Shown here piece by piece: positions 40,419-51,324 of a stretch of 51,324 nt of DNA. Origin of the DNA: Balneolaceae bacterium (lineage in GTDB: Bacteria; Bacteroidota; Rhodothermia; Balneolales; Balneolaceae). The notes beneath the pieces are model-generated. The model had not been told where the DNA came from and made no database searches. It worked only from the letters and a program-made list of their open reading frames with translations. Position 1 is the first letter of the stretch; each line of letters starts with the position of its first letter. A program made the position numbers and the translations under genes. The stretch spans positions 1 to 51,324 of the forward strand of contig REDT01000197.1 of NCBI GenBank assembly GCA_007693295.1, given 5' to 3'.

Positions 40419-41711
40419 ATGATTGAGCGTTATTCGAGAAAAGAGATGACCGACATCTGGTCTGAACAGAACCATTTTCAAGCCTGGCTCGACGTTGAAC
40501 TTGCAGCCTGCAAGGCGTGGAGCAAAATCGGGAAAATTCCCGCAGAGGATGTTGAGAAACTCTATAAAAATGCGACTTTTGATATTGATCGCATTAAAGA
40601 GATTGAAATGGAAACCCGTCACGATGTAGTTGCCTTTACAAGGTCGGTCTCCGAATCGCTGGGCGAGGAGAAGAAATGGGTTCACTATGGACTTACTTCC
40701 ACAGATGTTGTGGATACGGCCAATGGTTGCCGGTTGAAACAGGCAAATGTACTTCTGAGAACCGGTCTTAATCGCTTTAATAAAGCCCTTGCTGAAAAAG
40801 CGCACGAGCACAAACTAACCGTGATGATGGGGCGCACGCATGGCGTGCACGCCGAACCTACAACTTTCGGCCTCAAATGTGCTCTTTGGTATGCTGAAAT
40901 GCAGCGTAACATGGACCGTTTTGAAAGAGCTGCAGCAGATGTCGAGTTTGGTAAACTATCAGGGGCGGTAGGAACTTTCGCTCATATTCCGCCCGAGGTT
41001 GAAAAAATAACCTGTGAGCTGCTCGGGCTAAGTCCGGCACCTGTTTCCACTCAAACCCTTCAGCGCGACAGGCACGCCTACTACATGGCTACCCTGGCGG
41101 TGATTGGCGGAACCCTGGAGAAGATCGCCGTGGAGATTCGCCATCTGCAGCGAACAGAGCTGCGTGAAGCCGAAGAGTTTTTCCGCAAAGGGCAGAAGGG
41201 TTCATCAGCCATGCCTCACAAGCGTAATCCAATCAGTTCCGAAAATATTACAGGGTGCGCCCGTGTATTGCGCGGATACATGGTTTCAGCCTATGAAAAT
41301 ATGCCTCTCTGGCACGAAAGAGATATCTCTCACTCATCCGTTGAACGAATTATACTTCCGGATGCCACCATACTTCTCGACTACATGCTCCATCGCTTTT
41401 CGAGTGTGATCGAAAAATTGATGGTATATCCTGAGAATATGAAAGAGAATATGGAGAAGACACACGGGCTGGTATTCTCACAGCGACTTCTTTTGATGCT
41501 CATTGAAAAAGGTTTATCAAGAGAAGCTGCCTACGACAGGGTTCAGCCGCTGGCGATGCAGGCGTGGGAAGAGAAAAGATCGTTTCGTGAGTTGGTTGAG
41601 GCAGATACTACCATCCGCGATAACCTTACGCCCGAAGAGATAGAGAGCGCATTCGATTTGAATTACCACACCCGCAGAGTGGATGAAATTTTTAGGCGAG
41701 CCGGCCTCTAA
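40419..41711 (+). CDS. purB: Adenylosuccinate lyase
   Basis: [58 protein letters not shown]. Confidence 0.96.
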
Positions 41712-41732: not shown

Positions 41733-41917
41733 GGTTGAAACCTGACAGCATTCCCGCGCTTTTTGCGGGTTTCTGTCAGCGTTGGCGAAAAGTCCACCGA
41801 CCCTGAATCGCGGATTTCGCCTATGCGCGATCCCAAAGCAACGCTGTTCCCCAAGGGATCCCTTCGGGGCAGTGGGTGTACCGCTAAAGCTGCACCTTCG
41901 GCTGACAGGTTTTGACC
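41733..41917. repeat. Highly structured intergenic palindromic element (MITE/REP-like or ncRNA candidate)
   Basis: Imperfect terminal inverted repeats GGTTGAAACCTGACAG/CTGACAGGTTTTGACC (13/16); internal pairs CCCGC/GCGGG, GCGTTG/CAACGC, GGCGAAA/TTTCGCC, ATCGCG/CGCGAT and CCCCAAGGGATCCCTTCGGGG. Confidence 0.5.
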
Positions 41918-49963: not shown

Positions 49964-50857
49964 ATGGCTAACCTGCGCGATATACGAAACCGGATTTCAT
50001 CTATTGAGAATACTCAGCAGATTACAAAGGCCATGAAAATGGTTGCGGCTGCGAAATTGAGGAAAGCTCAGCAGAAAATGGTTGCTACCCGGCCCTATGC
50101 CAAAAAAATGCAAAGTGTTGTTGGCAGGCTGGTTTCCGGTGCAGGTACCGATAATATTGTTATGCGTCAGCCCGAAGAAACCAAAGCGGTACTGATGATT
50201 GTTGTTGGTTCAGACAAAGGGCTCTGCGGCGGATTCAACAACAATCTGTTCAAAGAGGTTGAAAAGTTCATAGCTGAAGAGCTCGACCGGTTCAATAAAG
50301 AAGGAACATTACACCTGATTACAATTGGAAGGAAAGCTGAAGCTTATTTTAAGAAACGAAACTATCACGTAGTTGACACAAATACCGGTTTTTTTGATAA
50401 TCTGAACTATGAGGATACTTCCGAGATTATGAGCGCGGCAATAGAGAAGTTTGCTGAAAGCACATATGATAAAGTTCTCATCGCATTTAATGAGTTTAAA
50501 ACGGTTATTACACAAAACAGGTTGATAGAAGAAGTTCTGCCGATTAATTCGCAAAAATTGGCAGAACTTGATGATAATAAAGATAATAATCAGGTTATTG
50601 ATTATATTTATGAGCCTGATGCACAAACAATTCTGGATGAGATTTTACCGGTTCATTTAAAAATGCAGTTGTGGCGGGCAGTGCTCGAATCGAATGCATC
50701 TGAGCAGGGAGCCAGAATGGCCGCAATGGATAATGCTACTGAAAATGCCAAAGAGCTCAGAGATGAGCTTAAATTGAAGTACAACCAGGCCCGGCAGAGT
50801 GCCATTACCACAGAAATTTCTGAGATTGTTTCCGGTGCAGCGGCATTGGAAGATTAA
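49964..50857 (+). CDS. atpG: F0F1 ATP synthase subunit gamma
   Basis: NLRDIRNRISSIENTQQITKAMKMVAAAKLRKAQ; SDKGLCGGFNNNLFK; ARQSAITTEISEIVSGAAAL. Confidence 0.97.
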   Translation: MANLRDIRNRISSIENTQQITKAMKMVAAAKLRKAQQKMVATRPYAKKMQSVVGRLVSGAGTDNIVMRQPEETKAVLMIVVGSDKGLCGGFNNNLFKEVEKFIAEELDRFNKEGTLHLITIGRKAEAYFKKRNYHVVDTNTGFFDNLNYEDTSEIMSAAIEKFAESTYDKVLIAFNEFKTVITQNRLIEEVLPINSQKLAELDDNKDNNQVIDYIYEPDAQTILDEILPVHLKMQLWRAVLESNASEQGARMAAMDNATENAKELRDELKLKYNQARQSAITTEISEIVSGAAALED

Positions 50858-50868
50858 TTGAGATGATA

Positions 50869-50923
50869 GTTATAACTTTTTGAAAGAAAAGGGTATCATC
50901 TGACAGACTGTTTTACGGAAACA
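50869..50923 (+). repeat. Direct repeat, left copy: remnant of a GIY-YIG gene 3' end plus downstream sequence
   Basis: Identical 55 nt to 51270-51324 (GTTATAACTTTTTGAAAGAAAAGGGTATCATCTGACAGACTGTTTTACGGAAACA). Confidence 0.95.
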
Positions 50924-50942
50924 TTTTCTATATACATATATA

Positions 50943-51029
50943 GGAGGGATGGCAGAGTGGTCGAATGCGGCGGTCTTGCCCCGTAGGGATCCCTTCGGGA
51001 AAAACCGCTGAGGCGCAAGTCTGCGGGGA
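50943..51029 (+). pseudogene. tRNA-Ser(TGA)-like sequence, interrupted in the anticodon loop and lacking the T-arm and 3' acceptor
   Basis: GGAGGGATGGCAGAGTGGTCGAATGCGGCGGTCTTG-[22 nt]-AAAACCGCTGAGGCGCAAGTCTGCGGGG, then AT-rich sequence with no TTCGAATCCC or TCCCTCC. Confidence 0.75.
50979..51000 (+). repeat. 22-nt near-palindromic insertion in the tRNA-Ser anticodon loop
   Basis: CCCCGTAGGGATCCCTTCGGGA sits between TTG and AAAACCGC of an otherwise normal anticodon arm; it contains CCCGTAGGGATCCCTTCGGG (palindromic apart from one T/T mismatch). Confidence 0.8.
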
Positions 51030-51061
51030 TTTAGTTCTTTTAATTTTTTGAAATTGACAGT

Positions 51062-51304
51062 TTGTATTATACGTATATACTGAAAAGTGAGATGAGTTAT
51101 TCTCACTACTATGGACATACAAGTGATCTGATTACCAGATTAAAGCGTCATAATGCAGGGAAAGTACGCAGTACAAAAGCATACAAACCCTGGAAGTTGA
51201 TCTACTCTGAAAAGTTTGCCACTAAATCGGAAGCTTATCAAAGAGAAAAATTTTTTAAAAGCATAGATGGTTATAACTTTTTGAAAGAAAAGGGTATCAT
51301 CTGA
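51062..51304 (+). CDS. GIY-YIG nuclease family protein
   Basis: YTYILKSEMSYSHYYGHTSDLITRLKRHNAGKVRSTKAYKPWKLIYSEKFATKSEAYQREKFFKS: GIY-YIG (YTY/YYG), conserved R and E; TTG start. Confidence 0.9.
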   Translation: MYYTYILKSEMSYSHYYGHTSDLITRLKRHNAGKVRSTKAYKPWKLIYSEKFATKSEAYQREKFFKSIDGYNFLKEKGII

Positions 51305-51324
51305 CAGACTGTTTTACGGAAACA
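51270..51324 (+). repeat. Direct repeat, right copy (GIY-YIG 3' end and downstream; runs to window edge)
   Basis: Identical 55 nt to 50869-50923, offset 401 bp. Confidence 0.95.

Follow-up and report, generated by a model that had tools for sequence, protein, structure and literature searches.

The stretch of DNA analysed here (the window; 51,324 nucleotides ending at position 51324, contig C229 of a draft genome in 334 contigs) carries a partial copy of a tRNA-Ser(UGA) gene whose anticodon loop is interrupted by a 22-nt unit, followed by the gene of a small GIY-YIG endonuclease. The insert is placed exactly in the loop, its two mini-hairpins covary, related units are dispersed in the genome with a preference for hairpin apexes, the arrangement recurs across many genera, and relatives display the empty site. 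The combination of an intact tRNA, a GIY-YIG gene and a loop-filled spare tRNA copy points to a tRNA-linked mobile system, as judged from comparative sequence data. On balance, it seems somewhat more likely than not that a GIY-YIG cassette has invaded the gene of tRNA-Ser(UGA) that follows atpG, and that hairpin units fill the loops of the spare copy, where they may keep it uncleavable and/or prevent deletion of the cassette. The features of the locus are the following.

49964 to 50857, plus strand: atpG, the syntenic marker of the locus
50865 to 50923, plus strand: remnant of the 3' end of a second GIY-YIG gene with its flank, a direct repeat of 51266-51324 (98% over 59 nt)
50943 to 50978, plus strand: spare tRNA-Ser(UGA) copy, positions 1-36, with 100% identity to the intact gene on contig C81
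50979 to 51000, plus strand: 22-nt twin mini-hairpin insert between tRNA positions 36 and 37, in the anticodon loop, defined by its exact boundaries against the intact tRNA-Ser, by covariation and by dispersed copies
50979 to 50989, plus strand: mini-hairpin 1 of the twin model, C CCC-GTA-GGG A, with the outer C and A unpaired in the window copy
50990 to 51000, plus strand: mini-hairpin 2 of the twin model, T CCC-TTC-GGG A
51001 to 51031, plus strand: spare tRNA-Ser copy, positions 37-67, with the remaining T arm and the acceptor 3' strand missing
51062 to 51304, plus strand: GIY-YIG endonuclease gene, 80 aa, TTG start (PF01541, E=1.2e-15)
51266 to 51324, plus strand: second copy of the GIY-YIG 3' end and flank, at the contig end, with the intact tRNA-Ser (C81) next by synteny

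In comparison with the intact tRNA-Ser, the insert (CCCCGTAGGGATCCCTTCGGGA) is flanked in the anticodon loop by CTTG on the 5' side and AAAA on the 3' side; neither boundary can be shifted, and the target site is not duplicated. The sequence-only reading, which had recognised a tRNA-Ser and placed a 22-nt insert within its anticodon loop, was correct to the base on the position and is confirmed on the identity of the locus. Its proposal of a micro-element that inactivated this copy stands in part: a micro-element does lie in a dead copy, but it is not the sole inactivator, as the copy is doubly damaged, by the insert and by a truncated T arm. No tRNA or Rfam family was called at the spare copy, Rfam remaining empty also at a relaxed threshold, and ARAGORN reported no tRNA after removal of the insert because its T arm, too, differs from that of the intact gene. 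Excision, which had been held to restore a canonical anticodon arm, does not yield a callable tRNA, none being called either with the insert or without it; the spare copy is partial and non-functional even apart from the insert. A tiny intron, spliced from the transcript to yield a working tRNA, would suit the anticodon-loop position, but this reading was rejected and is regarded as extremely improbable: the excised copy is still no tRNA and no remnant examined is complete, like inserts also occupy D and T loops, an intact tRNA-Ser gene lies next door by synteny, and there is no Rfam match, so that no ribozyme or other known RNA family is called.

The only intact tRNA-Ser(UGA) found is on C81, a contig which terminates exactly at the 5' end of that tRNA. 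Since the gene beyond this tRNA follows the atpG locus in relatives (L080, G003, G016, G020 and G021), C81 is placed directly after the window, and the intact tRNA-Ser most probably lies directly downstream of it. The window protein contains the GIY-YIG catalytic domain, and its PDB relatives are the UPF0213 proteins 1ywl and 1zg2. The direct repeat on either side of the spare copy suggests that the locus may once have held a tandem array of tRNA and GIY-YIG genes; tandem GIY-YIG arrays exist, e.g. three genes in G301. No integrase gene was found among the window ORFs near the locus (C81 is annotated in part), and none was seen in the short cassettes inspected in other genomes.

Most relatives within the genus show the empty state, in which one intact tRNA-Ser comes after atpG, and the GIY-YIG insertion is missing from the window site in most genus members, as is characteristic of homing endonuclease genes. 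At the same locus, G000, G003, G011 and G021 carry a 5' remnant with units in the anticodon or D loop, and G016 and G020 carry a 3' remnant with units in the T loop, a pattern suggestive of two or more independent events at a single tRNA gene.

Loci were gathered on a broader scale by similarity to the 80-residue GIY-YIG protein, independently of the insert, and the counted set comprised the 35 loci (34 distinct, L079 and L171 being apparently one genome) at which an intact tRNA is accompanied by partial copies of itself. Inserts lie exactly in the D, anticodon or T loops at 32 of the 35 loci, across Bacteroidota and neighbouring phyla. Counted by locus, the anticodon loop is interrupted in about 15 cases and intact in 1, the T loop is interrupted in 18 and intact in 3, and the D loop is interrupted in 10 and intact in 6. 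The tRNAs concerned are mostly tRNA-Ser isoacceptors, together with Glu and Pro, and a loop insert in a tRNA-Leu is exemplified by L086. The earlier suggestion of a connection between the insert and the neighbouring GIY-YIG gene is borne out by this recurrence of the combination in dozens of loci. The particular form given to it, in which the insert would be where the GIY-YIG protein recognises or cuts DNA, is considered improbable: unit and gene are closely associated, and some single-domain GIY-YIG nucleases are structure-specific, but the inserts are so diverse in sequence and in length (18 to 64 nt) that only structure could be recognised.

The end points of the tRNA remnants vary from locus to locus (positions ~13 to 67), and no fixed insertion site is therefore visible. 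In G166, remnants of positions 1-43 and 43-88 lie upstream and downstream, respectively, of an intact tRNA with its GIY-YIG gene, which is the picture that entry of the cassette into a tRNA gene would leave. At most loci the remnants contain no uninterrupted tRNA stretch longer than ~20-36 nt, though some (L083, L084) retain ~52 nt, and this would agree with hairpins that only break homology, selected to stop recombination between tRNA copies from deleting the GIY-YIG gene and having no tie to the specificity of the nuclease. Such an explanation appears quite unlikely, as it leaves the exact loop placement, the conserved twin structure and the dispersal at other apexes unaccounted for.

The structure of the unit was assessed by scoring two fold models on 28 distinct 22-nt inserts, aligned and all picked by position from tRNA loops. 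Under the twin model (a pair of neighbouring hairpins, each of 4 bp with a 3-nt loop), 92.4% of cells are paired and 20 cells are changed on both sides in a compensatory manner, against a shuffle mean of 3.6, and none of 500 shuffles performed as well. The single-palindrome model reaches 76.6% paired cells, equal to the shuffle mean (280 of 500 shuffles), and one long palindrome was rejected as the unit, its covariation being at shuffle level. The insert unit is two adjacent mini-hairpins, and the near-palindrome of the earlier reading gives way to this tandem arrangement. Inserts of other lengths (18, 26, 27, 35-36 and 60-64 nt) mostly consist of two adjacent hairpins too, some with further hairpins nested within. 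A scan of 275 kb for units of the form hairpin-AT-hairpin, in which most contigs had been chosen for holding units, returned 58 against 11.8 in Markov sequence. Folded alone, the window copy prefers one long hairpin of unremarkable stability (z -0.95), single-sequence folds being uninformative here. A unit in the anticodon loop of the spare copy would enable the arm to form a three-way junction.

Beyond the tRNA copies, the unit is widely dispersed. A 21-nt pattern allowing up to 3 mismatches matches the whole genome 44 times forward and 44 times in reverse; the reversed-pattern control gave 0 matches over the whole genome at the same threshold, and shuffled windows gave no match. Exact core matches of the 22-nt unit occur elsewhere in the genome on C161, C158, C51 and C65, and a paralogous repeat provides an empty and an occupied state with identical boundaries, ATTG^AGGGG in C306 and ATTG, the 22 nt and AGGGG in C161. 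Among 29 independent site clusters, 8 show at least 7 bp of flank complementarity; when flanks are mismatched the share is 0.9% of pairs, and none of 2000 permutations equals the observed result. Insertions at apexes include CCCCCTTC^GAAGGGGG and TTCACCGCA^TGCGGTGAA. The anticodon, D and T loops of the tRNA copies are the same kind of site as these hairpin apexes. In the genus of the window (Balneolaceae), the 22-nt unit is abundant in some members and absent from others, and it is nearly lacking from the order's other genera. GIY-YIG carriers farther away, namely a Sphingobacteriales chromosome and a Melioribacter MAG, have dispersed versions of their own.

Two further occurrences of palindromic units were observed in this genome. 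A second twin-hairpin unit (CCCCGAAGGGATCCCTTGGGGA, minus strand) lies at 41848-41869 of the window, embedded in a larger interspersed repeat that follows the ORF at 40419-41711. Moreover, a repeat of ~180 bp at L049-L063 (C161, C158, C51, C270, C211 and others) contains several palindromes, including TCCGTCAGCTGACGGA, nested in hairpin loops, and its copies are natural empty/occupied pairs.

Within the genus, dispersal is correlated with the GIY-YIG gene. At least 4 dispersed units are present in 7 of 7 genus genomes with a strong Ser-type GIY-YIG gene and in 3 of 21 without it (Fisher p=1e-4, ancestry ignored). Exact matches of a different insert family are found in G113 only at two GIY-YIG/tRNA loci (tRNA-Ser cga and gct) and in G221 at one such locus only, so that the insert is tied to the cassette even when not dispersed; weaker matches elsewhere are at loci lacking both tRNA and GIY-YIG gene, where checked.

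The same dispersal could reflect a REP/REPIN-like repeat moved by a RAYT (Y1) transposase, which landed in a dispensable pseudo-tRNA and left the GIY-YIG gene as a bystander. The dozens of dispersed copies would fit such an origin, as would the record of REP dimers inside palindromes (PMC3733652); RAYT genes occur in 25 of 28 genus genomes, their number tracks that of the units (rho 0.50, p=0.006), and a few tRNA 3' remnants carry the unit with no GIY-YIG gene detected nearby. Conversely, nearly every GIY-YIG-linked tRNA remnant has inserts, which in G113 and G221 are found only there; the unit does not flank the 20 RAYT loci taken from four unit-rich genomes (1 match in 42.6 kb); and G011 has units with no RAYT match, whereas G023 has 17 RAYTs and no units. 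RAYT was set aside as the obvious mobiliser for lack of flanking units, the correlation with unit number notwithstanding, and this explanation is judged rather unlikely.

REP/REPIN elements associated with RAYT transposases are short dispersed hairpin units which form doublets and insert inside other palindromes (PMC3116915, PMC3733652, PMC6006769). The window unit resembles them in being a palindromic unit of 20-40 nt with many dispersed copies (the intergenic location was partly checked), in its doublets of hairpins and in its sites inside other palindromes. It differs in having no GTAG or GTGG just 5' of the hairpin foot (the flank is mostly TTG or TTC, and GTA lies in the loop), in consisting of two 11-nt hairpins with no spacer, in the lack of units around RAYT genes and in its strong link to GIY-YIG/tRNA loci. 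The small dispersed repeats (SDR) of Nostoc, attributed to Elhai and colleagues in 2008, are reportedly 21-27 nt long, with compensatory changes that keep the fold, and nested in other repeats. The present unit is likewise very small, with a fold kept through compensatory changes, and is nested in other repeats, but it belongs to another phylum and appears to differ in sequence; we know of no link between Nostoc SDR and GIY-YIG genes or tRNAs.

Free-standing GIY-YIG homing endonucleases, e.g. the Seg genes of phage T4, share with the window a single small GIY-YIG gene at a locus empty in relatives. The window gene, a putative homing gene, is instead chromosomal and has an intact copy of a tRNA on one side and a broken copy of it on the other, the latter holding hairpin units. 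Integrative elements targeting tRNA genes leave a partial tRNA copy as a direct repeat while the target tRNA stays intact, and both features are seen here; the cassette differs in measuring a few hundred bases, in carrying the GIY-YIG gene only and in having remnants with loop inserts. REP dimers inside palindromes, REPINs and free-standing GIY-YIG homing genes are thus already known separately. The literature searched, with most subscription journals outside its reach, yielded no description of a system that combines an intact tRNA with a GIY-YIG gene and a loop-filled spare tRNA.

Under the favoured reading of a cassette invasion, the GIY-YIG cassette would have entered the tRNA gene, leaving one intact tRNA (C81) and one spare partial copy, and the 22-nt twin unit would have been placed into the anticodon loop of the latter without target duplication. 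The UPF0213-like protein may be a homing-type endonuclease whose substrate is the tRNA gene or else hairpin loops. Captured units could then persist by making the spare copy uncleavable, a form of self-protection, and/or by interrupting the homology between the direct repeats, through which the cassette would otherwise be lost. Pure self-immunity would be incomplete, since the cassette's intact tRNA retains the presumed target. In Balneolaceae, the units would later have spread to other hairpin apexes, possibly driven by the nuclease. A bolder proposition, offered tentatively as a possibility, is that the small GIY-YIG nucleases found beside tRNAs and the twin mini-hairpins are parts of a single mobile system, in which the nuclease opens hairpin loops, tRNA arms first, units are joined in, the spare copy is immunised and units spread to apexes.

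If this is true, a widespread gene labelled only as a GIY-YIG nuclease would turn out to parasitise tRNA genes and to have a defined target, and a candidate partner enzyme would be at hand for one of the smallest known mobile DNA units. The movement of very small palindromic repeats is an old question, which an 80-residue protein and short oligonucleotides would open to testing. It would also account for broken tRNA-like genes missed or misread by annotation pipelines.

Several additional loci were noted. A weaker and more distant GIY-YIG clade (L177-L198) adjoins tRNA-Val, Gly, Pro, Met and Asp, with remnants bearing extra hairpins; in these pseudo-tRNAs, single hairpins (TCCCG...CGGGA) either break up the arms or take their place. 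At L244, L252, L246 and L175, two or three GIY-YIG genes lie in tandem, each accompanied by one tRNA remnant. At L017 and L045, tRNA 3' remnants whose T loop holds a twin-hairpin unit show no nearby GIY-YIG gene, and a second palindrome family, GCGAAAGC-AT-GCTTTCGC, lies beside them. Finally, GIY-YIG relatives occur in candidate phyla (L087-L127, Patescibacteria and others), some adjoining tRNA genes with near-complete second copies (tRNA-Cys, L101).
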